Positions 3,669 to 10,074 of a DNA stretch of 53,749 nt are shown one piece after another (position 1 is the stretch's first letter; each line of letters opens with the position of its first letter). The stretch covers positions 1 through 53,749 of the forward strand of contig NZ_JANQOY010000249.1 in NCBI RefSeq assembly GCF_028285565.1, given 5' to 3'. The notes beneath the pieces are model-generated. The model made no database searches. It saw only the letters and a program-made list of their open reading frames with translations, and was not told the DNA's origin. A program made the position numbers and the translations under genes. Source of the DNA: Acaryochloris sp. IP29b_bin.148. GTDB lineage: Bacteria; Cyanobacteriota; Cyanobacteriia; Thermosynechococcales; Thermosynechococcaceae.

Positions 3669-4310
3669 TTACAGTTGGTTCAGAATTTGGGGCTGATCGA
3701 CAATATCTGGAAATTTGGTGATCACCTGAGCACAGGATTGGATAAAGGTGTTAATCCATTGCCGTGCCAGTTCTTTTTGCTGATCGTCTAAGGATTGAGT
3801 CAGATTGCCTGGATAGGTAACCTTTTGCGATCGCTGAATCTGAAATTGCTTAAACCAGTCTTGGCTAGGGCGCGCAGCTTGCAGATAATTAACCGTGATG
3901 GCTGCACCCAAATAGGTTTTACCTATTTCTTGCAATTGGTTGAGAATACCCAATAGCGTCTCAACCGTGACCCCCGTTTCCAGGGAGGTCGGTGTCTCCT
4001 GAATCGCGGCCTTCGCTGATATAGAGGGTCCTGTCCCTTGATCTGACTCTCCTAAAATAGCGAAAATACGCTGTTCAACTTCCTCTAGCTGAGCCGGTGG
4101 TGAAACGGATTGAGCAGTGAGTCCCTGATGGTATTGCACCAGCGTTTCTAACTGCCGAATCATCAGATCGAGCGTTTCACCTCGACCATAGAGGTTTTTG
4201 AGAACATGCTCAAGATCCAGAAATGTGGAAAAGTCATCGCCCATATCCTCCACCTGTGATACATACGGATCCTTCTGACGGTAAAGCTTCCGTATGTAGT
4301 AATTCGTCAT
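3669..4310 (-). CDS. Hypothetical protein, soluble, helical
   Basis: A protein of about 213 residues that I do not recognise. It is hydrophilic, has no signal peptide or membrane segment, and looks mostly helical. A variable Ser/Pro/Thr-rich stretch near residues 90-110 separates an N-terminal part containing NLYGRGETLD from a C-terminal part containing ARQWINTFIQSC. The ATG at 4310 is used here; an in-frame GTG at 4331 would add seven residues and neither has a clear ribosome-binding site. A 10-bp inverted repeat covers the first codons (4260-4298). It lies upstream of ilvA on the same strand, but nothing suggests a shared function. Confidence 0.6.
   Translation of the reverse strand: MTNYYIRKLYRQKDPYVSQVEDMGDDFSTFLDLEHVLKNLYGRGETLDLMIRQLETLVQYHQGLTAQSVSPPAQLEEVEQRIFAILGESDQGTGPSISAKAAIQETPTSLETGVTVETLLGILNQLQEIGKTYLGAAITVNYLQAARPSQDWFKQFQIQRSQKVTYPGNLTQSLDDQQKELARQWINTFIQSCAQVITKFPDIVDQPQILNQL
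4260..4298 (-). repeat. Inverted repeat in the first codons of the hypothetical gene
   Basis: TACATACGGA (4260-4269) and TCCGTATGTA (4289-4298) are perfect 10-base arms with a 19-base spacer, covering roughly codons 5-17 of the minus-strand gene. In the mRNA this could fold into a hairpin close to the start codon. Confidence 0.5.
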
Positions 4311-4331
4311 GGGAGAGATCTTAGTGGGCAC

Positions 4332-5028
4332 AATCGAACCTAGCCAAATGAAATAAGGTAAAAAACTAGCTTTGGAGGATAGATCTGATGATGTGCACTC
4401 AAGGAATTCACCTAGACAGCACAGATCTTTGTTGATATTTAAAGGTTACACATTCCTGAAAGTAGATCTGACATTTATTCAGCGTTTTGCACCATAGCCT
4501 CTAGCCTCAACACTAGAAATAGAAAAAGTCTGCTATCAAAAATACAGGCTTAGCAATTTTTCACTCCTAGAATAGAAAAACATTCTATAAAATCCGTGGT
4601 TTCACGGATTGAGCTTTATAAGTCTATATGTGATCTTAGTAAATATTATTTGCGCAGATATTTTTATTCTTCTTATAAAAAATATCTGCCGCAGACCATT
4701 TCCTAAATCACTCATAAACCTTCATTGCCATATCCTATAGAACGATGGCCTTATCCATAGGACAGAGCTATGGATACATGCATATGCTTGCATATATCCG
4801 CACCTTCTTATAGGGATTTATCCGCATCGATTAGCGGTAGAAATTTATCAAAAAAAGTTCAATCTAGCCAGCAAGAGGGAACCCTTGTTTATAGACAAAG
4901 AATGCTACTTTATTTGTCTATAAACAAAGTATTTTTATACCTATCTACTGTAGATAGATTGCTTCGAGCCTTGCTTAGGCAACCACTACCCGTTCATCAT
5001 TCAACTAAACAAAAAAGGGTTATTCTCA
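4332..5028 (+). other. Long AT-rich intergenic region upstream of the PAP-like operon
   Basis: About 700 bases with no credible gene between a divergent hypothetical gene and the operon. It holds three AGATCTG-type motifs (near 4380, 4425 and 4464), a perfect hairpin AATCCGTG-GTTT-CACGGATT (4591-4610) without a following T-run, and a large inverted repeat at 4885-4927. The length and the dyads suggest regulated transcription and a long 5' leader. A 103-codon frame at 4770-5081 overlaps the first operon gene and was judged spurious. Confidence 0.5.
4885..4927 (+). repeat. 15-bp perfect inverted repeat, operator-like
   Basis: TTGTTTATAGACAAA (4885-4899) and TTTGTCTATAAACAA (4913-4927) are exact reverse complements separated by 13 bases. 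Each arm is itself nearly palindromic (TTGT-N6-ACAA), so the element can be read either as one hairpin or as two copies of one regulator site in opposite orientation, about 100 bases upstream of the first operon gene. Confidence 0.6.
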
Positions 5029-5745
5029 ATGGTTTTTACACCAGCAGAAACCGCCGCCAGTCCCAGTTCAAGCGGCGCTAGCGGACATTCATTTAAACAG
5101 TCCTATCCTCACAAGCTTAATCACTATCGTTTTGAGGATTTCTTCTCCTTTAATCGGGAACAAGGCACCATTGATGATTGGCACAATTCGCGCAATATTC
5201 TAGCGAGTGAAGATTTCATCATTGCGCTCATCAAAGGTTTAGAGCAAGAGGTGGGAAGCGCCTCTTCTGTAGTGATGTATAACATCGGTCATGAATGGGG
5301 CAAACAAGATGCTGTCTTCTTCCAAAACTGGTTTGAGGCCCAATTTCAACAATCCTTGCAAAAATGTCGTCCTTCCTTGGCCTTAGAAGCTTGGTGGTGG
5401 CCCTTTACCAGCCAAGGCTGGGGAAATTGGGAGGTTGATTTAGAAAACCAAAAGAATGGTTTTATGTTTATCAACATCTTTGATTCAGCTGTCGCTCGGA
5501 CCCTCGGTGATGTCGGTAAGCCCGTTTGCCATATTTATGCAGGTTTATTCGCAGGGTTCTTTAGCCATCTCGTTAAAAAAGAGCTGAGCTGTATCGAAAC
5601 CCAATGCTACGCCATGGGCGAAACCTACTGTAAGTTCCTCCTTGGCAAGCAAGATCGCATTGATGCAGCCACATTCTGGCAAAACGAAGGAGCCACCACC
5701 CGAGATATCGAAACCCGACTTCACAATGGGGAATATTTAGAATGA
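5029..5745 (+). CDS. V4R-domain protein, Slr0144-like
   Basis: A 238-residue soluble protein with a C-terminal V4R (4-vinyl reductase) domain, a small-molecule or metal-binding fold first seen in bacteriochlorophyll biosynthesis proteins. Three cysteines in the C-terminal part (C188, C193, C201, in SCIETQC and TYCKF) match the V4R cysteine cluster. By order and content this is the first gene of a set equivalent to Synechocystis slr0144-slr0151, reported to help assemble photosystem II. Its stop overlaps the next start (ATGA at 5742-5745), indicating translational coupling. A pigment or tetrapyrrole ligand is an inference from the family. Confidence 0.85.
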   Translation: MVFTPAETAASPSSSGASGHSFKQSYPHKLNHYRFEDFFSFNREQGTIDDWHNSRNILASEDFIIALIKGLEQEVGSASSVVMYNIGHEWGKQDAVFFQNWFEAQFQQSLQKCRPSLALEAWWWPFTSQGWGNWEVDLENQKNGFMFINIFDSAVARTLGDVGKPVCHIYAGLFAGFFSHLVKKELSCIETQCYAMGETYCKFLLGKQDRIDAATFWQNEGATTRDIETRLHNGEYLE

Positions 5746-6107
5746 GCGAACCCAGTGCATGGCAGGATTTAACTGTCCACGAGTTCCTACAAGCCTATAA
5801 CTGGTCAGGACAAAAGCTGCCAGAGGGATCGAAGCCCCACGCTGCCGAGGGTGAAATGGCTAATTGGCAGCGCCAGACGGTACAGACCTTTTTGAGTCAA
5901 TTGAATTGGTTAGGACTTCCCGTCAAACCACAAACGTTGGTGCCCTCCTCTCAGTCGTTTTCTACCCGTCTGACTATCAAGGACTTCTTTCAGTACTTTG
6001 CTTGGGAAGGGCACCCCAATATCGCCGCCATACCCGATATATCGAAGTCATCCCTGATTGCTCCTGAGGATGACCTGAACTTAAATGACTTCTCTGATAT
6101 GTTTTGA
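5742..6107 (+). CDS. Small three-repeat protein, Slr0145-like
   Basis: A 121-residue protein of the PAP-like operon. It has no catalytic motif, but three copies of a short unit are visible: LTVHEFLQAYNWSG (about residue 10), QTVQTFLSQLNWLG (about 46) and LTIKDFFQYFAWEG (about 77). The pattern is T-[VI]-x-x-F-[LF]-x(4)-W-x-G. The tail is acidic (DDLNLNDFSDMF). Such short aromatic repeats suggest a scaffold or adaptor that binds the same kind of partner several times. It starts within the ATGA overlap with the upstream gene and ends just before the next one, so co-translation is likely. Function is not known. Confidence 0.8.
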   Translation: MSEPSAWQDLTVHEFLQAYNWSGQKLPEGSKPHAAEGEMANWQRQTVQTFLSQLNWLGLPVKPQTLVPSSQSFSTRLTIKDFFQYFAWEGHPNIAAIPDISKSSLIAPEDDLNLNDFSDMF

Positions 6108-6115
6108 GGATTATC

Positions 6116-6604
6116 ATGCAATCAACCTTTGAAGATCTTGCGCGCGCTGCGGAAGATCATTACCTACAGCCCACAGAGATGAATAGCTTCAAGCAGCAAG
6201 TGGATGCTCTGCAAGATCGATTGACCGTATATGAAGCTATTCGAGATCATGAGCTGGTTATTTTCCAAACCATTGCAGATCAGCTGCATAAGGAACCTGC
6301 CTCCAATTCTCCATCCGATATCGAAAAAGTGTTGACCCATTGGATTGCTGTATTACGTTACAGTGCCATGGCTATGCTGATGGATCAGCCTGAGGTGCTG
6401 ACCGACCAACTGGGCTGGCTCACGGATGTAGTGAGTGGGGACGAATACCTCTCCTTGCATCAACATATCAGTGAGTTACTGCATCAGTGCTTGCACTCCG
6501 TCTTGGCTGAGGACCAAATCATGCTGATAGAGCCTTTCCTCCAGCCCGTCGATGCAGCGCTATTCAGTGAAGATAGTAATCGAGAATTAGTGGTTTTGGG
6601 TTAA
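6116..6604 (+). CDS. Phycobiliprotein-like globin-fold protein without bilin cysteine, Slr0146-like
   Basis: A 162-residue helical protein that aligns with its neighbour at 7862 and, more weakly, with allophycocyanin subunits. The N-terminal region has DRLTVYEAIRDHE, and the central helix has VLRYSAMAML, equivalent to LRYATYAML-type segments of phycobiliproteins. At the place where phycobiliproteins carry Cys-x-Arg-Asp it has V-x-T-H instead, so covalent bilin attachment at that site is not expected. I chose the ATG at 6116 because GAGG (6106-6109) sits at proper distance; a TTG at 6104 would add four residues. Likely a structural partner of the other operon proteins. Confidence 0.75.
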   Translation: MQSTFEDLARAAEDHYLQPTEMNSFKQQVDALQDRLTVYEAIRDHELVIFQTIADQLHKEPASNSPSDIEKVLTHWIAVLRYSAMAMLMDQPEVLTDQLGWLTDVVSGDEYLSLHQHISELLHQCLHSVLAEDQIMLIEPFLQPVDAALFSEDSNRELVVLG

Positions 6605-6623
6605 TGACCAGAGGATCGAAATA

Positions 6624-7301
6624 ATGATTGCCGTTGAAGAGTTAACAAGCCAGAAGCATATCCCTGGTAATTTCTTTGCCCCCAATGTATACGTCCAAGG
6701 GGACACGGAACTAGGATTGATTGAGAACCGGGAAGGCGCCCGCTTAATTGCGTTGCCAGAAACCTTGTTGAGTGCGCTGTACTCCGGTTTAGAACATGAA
6801 GTAGGCCCCGCTGCCGACTTAGTCCTCCAACAATGTGGCTATTATTGGGGAAGAAATTTTTACCGACGATTTGCCTCTGAGGTTAGTGAATACTACGGGA
6901 AGTCTCTAGCTGAGATGGAAATGGTGGAGTTTTTACAGCTACTCAAAGCATGCTGGAAAACTTATGGCTGGGGACTGATCGAGCTTGATTTTAGTTACCA
7001 TCAACAGGGTTTTTTGGTCGTTCAGACTCAGCATTCTGCCTTTGCTAAAGTGCGAGGGGCGGGAGAACATCCCTCTTGCTTTGTCGAGTCAGGACTCTTG
7101 AGCGCCTTTTTTAGTCAGTTAACGGGACGTGAGCTGGGCTGTGTGCAAACCACCTGTGAATCGCTGCAGGCCACCCACAACTCCTTTATTTTAGGGTTGC
7201 CAGAGCGGATCAAAGCTGCCGAAGCTTGGATCAAAGAAGCTCAGGATCACGACACAATCCTATCGCAACTTTGTAGTCAACCTGCTGCAACTGTGAGTTA
7301 G
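6624..7301 (+). CDS. V4R-domain protein, Slr0147-like
   Basis: A 225-residue paralogue of the operon's first gene. Shared landmarks include SALYSGLEHEVGPAADLVL near residue 50, CGYYWGR, a Trp-Gly segment (TYGWGLIELDF) and the C-terminal VESGLLSAFFSQLTGRELGC. The V4R cysteine cluster is incomplete: C173 and C178 are kept, but the third position is N186 (THNSF) where the paralogue has cysteine. The two V4R proteins may form a hetero-oligomer in which only one chain has the full cysteine set; this is inference. It starts 19 bases after the preceding stop, with a GAGG site upstream. Confidence 0.83.
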   Translation: MIAVEELTSQKHIPGNFFAPNVYVQGDTELGLIENREGARLIALPETLLSALYSGLEHEVGPAADLVLQQCGYYWGRNFYRRFASEVSEYYGKSLAEMEMVEFLQLLKACWKTYGWGLIELDFSYHQQGFLVVQTQHSAFAKVRGAGEHPSCFVESGLLSAFFSQLTGRELGCVQTTCESLQATHNSFILGLPERIKAAEAWIKEAQDHDTILSQLCSQPAATVS

Positions 7302-7349
7302 ACCCATGTCAAAACAATTAATCCGTAGACAAACTGGGAGAGTATAGCG

Positions 7350-7832
7350 ATGGCCAAAATCGTTAAATTAGACCCTATTGGCCAAGAAACGAGTATCGCC
7401 ACCAATGATAATTTGCTATCGGCCTTACTCAAAAATGAACTGAAGGTTCTCAGCGAATGTGGGGGGCGTGGAATGTGTGCCACTTGCCATATCCACATCA
7501 AAGAGGGGATGGAACATTTGTCTCCCATGAGTCGCCGGGAACGGCGGACCTTAGGAGTGATCACAACCTGTAAACTGAATTCCCGTTTGGCTTGCCAAAG
7601 CAAAGTCATGGGCGAGGGCGTCGTTGTCGAACTCCCGGCGGGGATGTATCTCAGTGATATAAGTGACATCGAATGCTTGATTGGTCGCCGCGCTGAAGAC
7701 AATATTTTACATCCCTTAGATGGCAAGGTTCTGGTGGAGAAAGGGAAACTCATCACTCGATCCATGATCAGCCAACTGGAAGAGACTCGCAGTGACGTTT
7801 CAACTCACTTAGCCCATTCACAACCCGTATAA
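7350..7832 (+). CDS. 2Fe-2S ferredoxin with C-terminal extension, Slr0148-like
   Basis: A 160-residue electron carrier. Residues 1-95 form a 2Fe-2S ferredoxin fold with cluster cysteines C37, C43, C46 and C82 (SECGGRGMCATCH and LACQS). The spacing CX5CX2CX35C is like adrenodoxin/Isc-type ferredoxins; plant-type PetF has CX4CX2CX29C. The 65-residue tail after the domain has no recognisable motif. It corresponds to slr0148 in the PAP operon. The separate plant-type ferredoxin gene found between the equivalents of the next two genes in Synechocystis (slr0150) is absent here, so this is the only redox carrier of the cluster. A GGGAG site precedes the start. Confidence 0.88.
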   Translation: MAKIVKLDPIGQETSIATNDNLLSALLKNELKVLSECGGRGMCATCHIHIKEGMEHLSPMSRRERRTLGVITTCKLNSRLACQSKVMGEGVVVELPAGMYLSDISDIECLIGRRAEDNILHPLDGKVLVEKGKLITRSMISQLEETRSDVSTHLAHSQPV

Positions 7833-7861
7833 ACAACCAACATTAATGAGGGGGAAATAAT

Positions 7862-8329
7862 ATGCTGTCACAACTCAAGCACCTGAGTATTGAAGCAGAT
7901 GGTCGCTATGCAACGGATGCAGACCTGAACTTTTTAAAGTCCTATATTCAGTCCGCTCGCCAACGCATTAGCGCCTATGAAAAAATTCGGGATGCTGAGG
8001 CAACCCTGATGGAGCAAGCGGATACAAAATTAATGGAGATTGATCCGCAAGTCTTTCATAAGGGATCTAAAGATTATCGAGAAACGTGCCATCGCGATCG
8101 CAAAAATACGCTGCGCTATACAGCAACGGCCATGCTGTTTAATGATCTCGATCGTCTCCGAGATGGGCTATTACTTTGGCAACGAACGATTGTCCATGCC
8201 GTTAAGGATGAGCATGCATCTACATTGACATGGCAAGAAATGCCTGAAATTCTGCGGGAGCATCTCACGGCGGAAGAGGCCGATTTAATGATGCCTGCGT
8301 TACATCTCAATCAAGCCCTACTAAACTAA
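7862..8329 (+). CDS. Phycobiliprotein-like protein retaining a Cys-x-Arg-Asp bilin site, Slr0149-like
   Basis: A 155-residue protein with the phycobiliprotein globin fold. The segment GRYATDADLNFLKSYIQS matches the ARYLSPGELDRIKSFV region of allophycocyanin. The following TCHRDRKNTLRYTATAML matches the chromophore helix TCLRDLDYYLRYATYAML. C76, R78 and D79 occupy the positions of the bilin-attaching cysteine and the Arg/Asp that contact the bilin. After residue 100 the protein diverges from true antenna subunits. A strong GAGGGGG site lies 8 bases before the ATG. It may bind a bilin, or use the fold only for assembly; the retained triad favours the first but does not prove it. Confidence 0.8.
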   Translation: MLSQLKHLSIEADGRYATDADLNFLKSYIQSARQRISAYEKIRDAEATLMEQADTKLMEIDPQVFHKGSKDYRETCHRDRKNTLRYTATAMLFNDLDRLRDGLLLWQRTIVHAVKDEHASTLTWQEMPEILREHLTAEEADLMMPALHLNQALLN

Positions 8330-8373
8330 TTGTCCCTGAACCATTATTGAGAATTTTAGGATTTTCGGAAACT

Positions 8374-9390
8374 ATGCAAGCCGCAAATAACATGCAAGAG
8401 AGCGCCAGTCCCTCCGGCGGGATTAACCTCATTGATACCCTGACTGTTTGTGCCGCGATCGGCGGGGGTGTTGCCTCCCTGGTCACTCAGCAAATTGCTT
8501 TTGCCTCAATTCCTTTGTCTTTAACCGCTATCCTTAATCTGACCAATCGCCGTCAACAGATTGCGGCTGTTCAAGAGCAGCAACGGATGGAGAACGCCCA
8601 TTTGATCCGACGGTGCCAAGACGAAGCCCATGCTGAGATCGTTGTACTGAAGCAAAGTAGTGAAGGCGTTCATGCTCAAATTGAGCATTTAACTCAGCAA
8701 AAGACCCAAGCGTTGCAAACCATCGCCACCTTAACGGAACAAACAGACGAGTTGAAATCTGTGCTCACAACGCTCAAACAGTCCCAGCAACAGGGAGAGG
8801 TCACCTTTAAGACCCTGAACGAGCAAAATCAAACATCGCAAACACAAGTTGAGAAACTGTCCACAGACATGGAGGATTTAAAAAATGCGATCGCATACCT
8901 ACAGTCCTCTGCTTCAGACCTGGATAGCCGTGTCGATGCCCAACAAAATAATTCTCAGCATCTTGCAGCCCAAACCGAAAGTGTGGAGGAACTGGTGGAA
9001 ATCCTCAGAGAGATTGACACCCTCACCCAGGCCATTTCAGCCAATCCAGCGATAGCGGATCACTTTTATCAGCGCGGTCTTATTCGCAAGCAATTGCAGC
9101 GGTTAGAAGATCATCGCATCGCCATGGAAGACTTCTCTCAGGCGATTCAACTAGAGCCGACCCTTGCCAATGCTTACTTTGAGCGCGGCCTACTCAAATC
9201 CGACTTTGATCACAAGCAACATGCTGTTGATGACCTGCGCACAGCAGCCAAGCTCTATTTTGAGCAAGGGGATTTGACACAATACGAGAAAGCCCGTGAC
9301 CTCAGTCAAAACATTCATGACTTAATTAGTGGCGATCCCTCTCCGGAAGAAGAAACTGAACAGTACCTGATTGAGAATCTCTTCGGTTAA
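8374..9390 (+). CDS. Membrane-anchored coiled-coil/TPR protein, Slr0151-like
   Basis: A protein of about 338 residues and the last gene of the operon. A hydrophobic stretch near residues 17-50 (VCAAIGGGVASLV and IPLSLTAIL) anchors it in a membrane. A long coiled coil follows (about 55-215), rich in Gln, Glu and Leu. The C-terminal third has tetratricopeptide-like repeats (HFYQRGLIRKQL, AYFERGLLKSDF). Slr0151 of Synechocystis is a thylakoid-associated TPR protein implicated in photosystem II repair, and this gene has the same place and architecture. I chose the ATG at 8374; an upstream in-frame TTG at 8347 is less likely. A strong hairpin ends the operon. Confidence 0.85.
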   Translation: MQAANNMQESASPSGGINLIDTLTVCAAIGGGVASLVTQQIAFASIPLSLTAILNLTNRRQQIAAVQEQQRMENAHLIRRCQDEAHAEIVVLKQSSEGVHAQIEHLTQQKTQALQTIATLTEQTDELKSVLTTLKQSQQQGEVTFKTLNEQNQTSQTQVEKLSTDMEDLKNAIAYLQSSASDLDSRVDAQQNNSQHLAAQTESVEELVEILREIDTLTQAISANPAIADHFYQRGLIRKQLQRLEDHRIAMEDFSQAIQLEPTLANAYFERGLLKSDFDHKQHAVDDLRTAAKLYFEQGDLTQYEKARDLSQNIHDLISGDPSPEEETEQYLIENLFG

Positions 9391-9416
9391 ATCAATTCTC
9401 AACAATCCTATATCGA

Positions 9417-9454
9417 TAGCAGGGCATTCAGTCATCCAACTGAATGCCCTGCTA
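9417..9454. terminator. Strong bidirectional hairpin ending the PAP-like operon
   Basis: TAGCAGGGCATTCAGT (9417-9432) and ACTGAATGCCCTGCTA (9439-9454) form a perfect 16-bp stem with a 6-base loop. It lies between the operon and a convergent gene and probably terminates or protects both transcripts. Only a short T-rich tail follows on the plus strand. Confidence 0.8.
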
Positions 9455-9495
9455 GACGTTTAAAACCGCTGCACTGGAGGTGGATACAGAATACC

Positions 9496-10074
9496 TTAGC
9501 GCCCCATCTGGCGTTTTAACGCTTCGAGTTCTGCCTCTCTTTCCCAAGTTCTGAACTGTTCGTCTAGGGGATCGGGATCACCCAGGGAGACCTTGTGATA
9601 CCAACCACTGGAAGGATCTGACGTTTGAGAGGGGGCTGGGCTGGGCTGGGGTTTACGAGGTGTTTGTCGAATTTTTTCTTGCACCTCTTGTTGCCGGACC
9701 CGAATTTTCTCCAACAAGGATTGGGTTTGCTGCAATCGCGCTTTGGTCACCTCCATTTGTCCCCACTGTTGGTTGCCTTGGCTTAGCAGTGAGGCTTCGC
9801 GCGCTTTAGCTGCCGTGGCCAAGTCCTGTCGTCCAGCTGCCTCCGCTTTTTTAATGCGTTCATGCCAGCGCTGGATCTCGTTCGCTGTCGCTAAAATGGC
9901 ATCTTGTTGACGTTTCTCTTCCGCTTCTAGTTCGGCCAGTAACTTAGTTGTTTTAACGTCCTGCTCTCGCAAATTATCGACCAGAACCTGCAATTCCAAA
10001 TGTGGATGGGCTCGAAGAAATTCTTCTAACTGCTTTTCTAAAAAGCGGCTCACGTCTTCAAACACATTCATCAT
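9496..10074 (-). CDS. Conserved cyanobacterial-type coiled-coil protein
   Basis: A soluble protein of about 192 residues. It begins MNVFEDVSRFLEKQLEEFL and is then almost entirely coiled coil (about residues 30-135, rich in Glu, Gln, Lys and Ala), with a proline-rich linker (RKPQPSPAPS) and a short charged tail (FRTWEREAELEALKRQMG). I believe it belongs to the uncharacterised cyanobacterial family TIGR04376, but that would need a profile search. The start is set by GGAGG (10080-10084), which places ATG at 10074 or 10071; a further in-frame start at 10107 is less likely. Function is unknown. Confidence 0.7.
   Translation of the reverse strand: MMNVFEDVSRFLEKQLEEFLRAHPHLELQVLVDNLREQDVKTTKLLAELEAEEKRQQDAILATANEIQRWHERIKKAEAAGRQDLATAAKAREASLLSQGNQQWGQMEVTKARLQQTQSLLEKIRVRQQEVQEKIRQTPRKPQPSPAPSQTSDPSSGWYHKVSLGDPDPLDEQFRTWEREAELEALKRQMGR

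Follow-up and report, generated by a model that had tools for sequence, protein, structure and literature searches.

The window analysed here is a whole 53,749-nucleotide stretch of Acaryochloris sp. IP29b_bin.148 (NZ_JANQOY010000249.1; contig C85 of a draft genome of 5.07 Mb in 251 contigs, 87% complete), and our subject is a plus-strand open reading frame (ORF) at 7862–8329 that encodes a globin of 155 amino acids. It is a known kind of gene, the Slr0149-type cyanobacterial BBAG, a phycobiliprotein-fold globin described in 2018 and 2023. A family scan matched the product to PF00502, a structure model predicted the phycobiliprotein fold, and the model superposed on both the ApcA and the ApcB chains of allophycocyanin (TM about 0.82), a comparison that a sequence-only reading of the stretch had proposed as a check. 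The same reading had placed C76, R78 and D79 at the bilin positions, and alignment to PDB chains confirmed this Cys76-x-Arg78-Asp79 site, the codons of C76-H77-R78-D79 lying at 8087–8098 on the plus strand. The predicted fold and the Cys-x-Arg-Asp (CXRD) motif are shared with ApcA/ApcB, but identity to those chains is about 13–23%, and scores against the NCBIfam equivalogs were far below cut-off for both apcB (37.3 bits vs. 228.15) and apcA (30.6 bits vs. 270), in keeping with the earlier view that the protein is not a structural antenna; gene context and place on a tree, described below, set it apart as well. Its nearest named relatives are from Acaryochloris metagenome-assembled genomes. The gene is under purifying selection: the ratio of nonsynonymous to synonymous rates (dN/dS) was 0.05–0.11 in four of five window pairs, with dS of 1.35–2.40, near saturation, and was not computable for the fifth. 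A PDB search with a 15-row BBAG profile at E 1e-10, too strict a threshold, gave no match, and a scan of viral contigs with the 15-row BBAG alignment confirmed none of 53 pattern matches as phage-borne relatives.

The globin is the sixth of seven collinear plus-strand genes spanning 5029–9390, with gaps of −4 to 48 bases. These encode a V4R-domain protein (5029–5745, PF02830, 82.9 bits) in the slr0144-like position; an slr0145-like small protein (5742–6107) that matched nothing in Pfam or NCBIfam at E up to 1, recognized by its same-place relatives in other loci; an slr0146-like globin (6104–6604, with an ATG at 6116); a second V4R-domain protein (6624–7301, PF02830, 44.6 bits) in the slr0147-like position; a 2Fe-2S ferredoxin-like protein (7350–7832, PF00111, 40.2 bits) in the slr0148-like position; the BBAG; and, in the slr0151-like position, a coiled-coil and TPR protein (8347–9390; TPR_11, 27.0 bits against a cut-off of 26.8) whose relatives also follow the globin in other loci. 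This order is that of the PAP operon, and the content of the window operon is that of slr0144–slr0151 of Synechocystis without slr0150, the second ferredoxin gene, which is absent from the 17 bases between the globin and the TPR ORF; the matching of Synechocystis slr loci to gene types is in part our assumption. A promoter and terminator scan of 4300–9600 was uninformative, finding fewer sites than in shuffles (3 vs. 8.1 and 1 vs. 5.0). Also seen was a cyanobacterial-type PAP operon on a contig labelled Candidatus Gracilibacteria (L008:1–8300, BBAG at 6001–6480), its first V4R gene and its TPR gene each split in two frames; this is probably a mis-binned cyanobacterial contig.

Published accounts place these proteins together in the thylakoid: interactions among Slr0144–Slr0149 are supported by affinity purification–mass spectrometry with Slr0149-GFP, and a thylakoid location is stated (PMC9880817). 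The operon is listed as associated with photosystem II assembly, photosystem II being lower without slr0151 (PMC9145668), and V4R proteins have been suggested to hold chlorophyll or its precursors (PMC13326532, PMC9175036). A photosystem II role for the window protein is drawn from papers on the Synechocystis operon, most directly on slr0151.

To the globin itself, Rockwell et al. 2023 (PMC10151467) gave the name cyanobacterial BBAG for the Slr0149 type, with CXRD in "some" members, and we see no essential difference between the window protein and their description. Bacterial BBAGs were shown there to bind bilin in Escherichia coli without lyases; those measured fluoresce weakly, and photoconversion was not observed. 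Among heterotrophic bacteria, BBAG-1 and BBAG-3 resemble the window arrangement in lying in clusters with V4R and Fe-S genes and in having CXRD in the tested members, but their clusters further encode a pre-PcyA reductase and in many cases a heme oxygenase (PMC10151467), whereas the window genome has its PcyA and heme oxygenase genes on other contigs. The host also has two CpcS-type lyase genes, and PcyA was found in six of the seven genomes of the genus, the miss being an 87% complete draft. PF00502 proteins in the host assembly, with its 87% completeness, are limited to the two globins of the operon and one ApcB-like protein (G000:C174:4445–4891). In G010, a genome of the phylum but outside the class of the window organism, the 18 kb contig C109 carries two globins (loci L202 and L142) with Val or Thr for the Cys. 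Ferredoxin and V4R genes lie there too, as does a weak match to PF05996 (63.9 bits), and G010 gave no PF00124 match; pre-PcyA in such sister lineages had already been reported (PMC10151467).

Orthologues were collected from 386 genomes of the phylum, 7 of the genus and 12 named loci, giving 74 different BBAG-class and 52 slr0146-class proteins; exact duplicates, fragments at locus ends and one frameshifted copy (L010, which reads C-L-R-D) were left out of the counts, and the 74 rows are not independent because close relatives and within-genome paralogues are included. In that excluded copy (L010:6001–6464, from an Acaryochloris draft) the BBAG frame and, upstream of it, the second V4R gene are both split in two, which may reflect either assembly error or decay, indistinguishable here. 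The sequence-only reading had proposed invariance of the triad as a check, and invariance does not hold. At position 76, 51 of the 74 BBAGs have Cys, 21 Trp and 2 Phe, which puts a count on the "some" of the earlier account; position 78 is Arg in 53 of 74 and position 79 is Asp in 73 of 74. Arg78 goes largely with the cysteine, being kept in 45 of 51 Cys types vs. 8 of 23 others. All 21 Trp codons are TGG, one base from both Cys codons. The neighbour at 6116, a distant PF00502 relative in the same operon, has V, T and H at the triad places as had been read, and the one-sidedness remarked on in the window proved general, with the site cysteine in only 4 of 52 slr0146-class proteins (and 3 of 52 with Asp as the last triad residue).

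Random loss of the cysteine had been named as grounds for giving up the bilin-site reading. Loss occurs, but it is structured by descent: a tree made with the motif columns removed required five changes between Cys and not-Cys, against a shuffled mean of 19.9, with none of 500 shuffles as low. A supported branch (100/98) divides the BBAGs into 26 rows (20 Trp, 6 Cys) and 48 rows (45 Cys, 1 Trp, 2 Phe), the window protein falling among the 48. In a wider tree, quickly made, carrying a long-branch warning, with ApcB as its sole light-harvesting type and Slr0149 itself left out, one branch (SH-aLRT 99) keeps all 74 BBAG rows together and another (also 99) does so for the 51 slr0146 rows included, and the seven ApcB rows of the genus fall elsewhere than the BBAG clade.

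Gene order divides along similar lines. Where a V4R gene and then a ferredoxin gene lie directly upstream on the same strand, as in the window (33 rows), 30 are Cys, 2 Phe and 1 Trp; where a first-kind V4R gene lies upstream, whether or not a second BBAG stands in tandem, all 15 are Cys; with a ferredoxin gene alone upstream the count drops to 4 of 16, and with none of these neighbours to 0 of 8. Two further rows (L007 and L073, both Cys) are cut by contig ends. These gene-order sets track descent, with too few independent pairs for significance. Side observations at these loci include tandem Cys-type BBAG pairs beside a V4R gene in Thermosynechococcus (L003–L005) and in the family of the window organism (L078, L079, L088 and L089), a predicted BBAG start that overlaps the ferredoxin gene (L103), and three genomes (G089, G247 and G280) with a PAP operon lacking a BBAG elsewhere in the genome (L143, L141 and L147).

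Judged from the aligned proteins, the Trp type has not simply decayed: 14 aligned Trp-type rows all have Lys75, Trp76, Asp79 and Arg82, and a cysteine appears at position 120 in 15 of 21 Trp types but in neither of the 2 Phe types and none of the 51 Cys types. Neither profile alignments to PDB chains nor published accounts of pocket residues settled whether position 120 belongs to the bilin pocket. Independent pairs numbered four both for Cys76 vs. Cys120 and for Cys76 vs. Arg78 (median p 0.5 in each). The idea that Trp types accompany loss of bilin synthesis was rejected, PF05996 (the PcyA family) being found in 41 of 42 chosen genomes; the sole miss, G193, does have a Trp type. We met no account of the Cys/Trp split in the literature, where no search was aimed at it, and Fig. 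S11 of PMC10151467 (motifs on a globin tree) may show part of it.

A further globin family was encountered in 15 of the 386 genomes (strong matches, over 150 bits), every one of its 15 members having Cys-x-Tyr-Asp at the bilin site and a second Cys at the place of position 120. In 14 of the 15 loci (L149 is the exception) this two-cysteine globin is followed by a same-strand linker gene of family PF00427, as at L139 (7039–7545 and 7679–8476) and likewise at L132, L135, L137, L138, L144, L148, L150, L151, L153, L154, L162, L181 and L182. Two of these linkers, when scanned, looked like rod-core linkers yet scored far below the NCBIfam cut-offs, and no PAP-type V4R or ferredoxin gene lay near the globin in six loci examined. 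Among the 51 phylum-sample genomes with BBAG rows, the two-cysteine globin occurs in 14 of 22 with the Trp/Phe type vs. none of 29 with the Cys type (Fisher p 2.5e-7); the fifteenth genome, G229, has no BBAG row. Supported independent pairs for the non-Cys type vs. the two-cysteine globin were only three (sign test, median p 1), and shared descent may be the cause of the links of the Cys/Trp state with both this globin and position 120. No account of a two-cysteine globin with its linker was met in the literature, where no search was aimed at such a pair. In some lineages the covalent pigment may be divided between two globins, and in others it may have stayed with the operon globin. A fuller version, which we offer tentatively and would not rely on, is that BBAGs are two-state, holding a bilin at Cys76 in intact PAP operons and elsewhere having Trp76 and any thiol at position 120 instead, with pigment attached at another place or unattached and the two-cysteine globin with its rod-core-type linker as covalent carrier.

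For the window globin itself, we think it probable that this Slr0149-type BBAG is an allophycocyanin-like protein with one bilin bound at Cys76, serving as the pigment subunit of the PAP complex for build-up or repair of photosystem II and not as an antenna. A covalent bilin on the 7862–8329 protein is likely, judging by its motif and its relatives. The apoprotein would take up a bilin, probably phycocyanobilin, and bind it by a thioether to Cys76, whether a lyase helps or not; Arg78 and Asp79 would be hydrogen-bonding partners of the pigment. In a small complex associated with the thylakoid (two V4R proteins, the 2Fe-2S protein, two globins and the TPR protein), the globin would then be the subunit that carries the pigment and would help to build or repair photosystem II as a carrier of tetrapyrroles, a sensor or a quencher, with the 2Fe-2S protein as a possible redox input and the V4R proteins as possible holders of chlorophyll or its precursors. 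While the complex itself is known from the literature, the role of the globin within it is a guess; the weak fluorescence and lack of photoconversion in related BBAGs favour a carrier, quencher or redox-linked role over that of antenna or photoreceptor. The sequence-only reading had suggested a pigment-binding assembly or sensing factor, of which the part that stands is a bilin-competent globin beside a site-less globin in the PAP operon, and the part that weakens it is the variability of the triad.

Several findings count against our preferred interpretation. The cysteine is absent in 23 of 74 BBAG orthologues, so covalent pigment is not needed everywhere. Even within the family of the window organism, L006 and L038 have Phe-x-Arg-Asp (the Phe pair is also listed as L006 and G296; at L006, BBAG at 6001–6465, the slr0146-like frame runs to just 88 codons). 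Of the 386 phylum genomes sampled, only 51 yielded BBAG-class globins. In the literature as available to us, photosystem II phenotypes concern slr0151 or the operon as a whole and not slr0149, and the bilin spectra described are those of BBAG-1, -2 and -3, no cyanobacterial BBAG being among them (PMC10151467).

These points lend some weight to a different view, in which the globin is a scaffold of the PAP complex with its pocket empty or holding a non-covalent ligand, and Cys76 is a harmless relic in the window lineage. Besides the Trp and Phe replacements, it is favoured by the lack of the cysteine in 48 of 52 members of the neighbour class, and by Asp79: since this residue stays whether or not the cysteine does, the site may be kept for a reason other than a thioether. 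Yet Cys76 is kept in 45 of 48 rows of the supported clade of the window protein, Arg78 goes with it as though the whole site were conserved together, and bacterial BBAGs do take up bilin in E. coli, so that we rate a bare scaffold as possible but doubtful. A bilin photoswitch reporting light to photosystem II assembly would fit a bilin motif and a 2Fe-2S protein encoded in one operon whose Synechocystis proteins reportedly interact; it is unlikely given that the tested bacterial BBAGs did not photoconvert (PMC10151467) and that the domain scan found no output domain in the 155 amino acids. The older apcA annotation implied that such a globin stands in for a missing allophycocyanin alpha chain as partner of the lone Acaryochloris ApcB. 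Each of the seven genus genomes does encode a single ApcB-like protein and gives one or more BBAG matches above the Pfam cut-off (the BBAG frame of G388 being broken), and the model superposes on ApcA and ApcB chains, but the apcA score, the location in the PAP operon and the published judgement that the apcA label for such Acaryochloris genes is probably wrong, these being slr0149 homologues (PMC6002478, 2018), make this role very improbable.

Rockwell et al. 2023 describe BBAG functions as not yet known (PMC10151467). The main interest here, the counted Cys/Trp split and the second globin, makes the question of the purpose of BBAG pigment testable, the Cys-type and Trp-type orthologues offering a natural comparison on whether the PAP complex needs covalent bilin. 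The Acaryochloris genome would be a good host, with little masking antenna pigment, since one phycobiliprotein-family protein was found outside the operon in the 87% complete draft. If BBAGs do have two states, the PAP complex would be a pigment-carrying photosystem II factor in some cyanobacterial lineages and pigment-free or differently pigmented in others.
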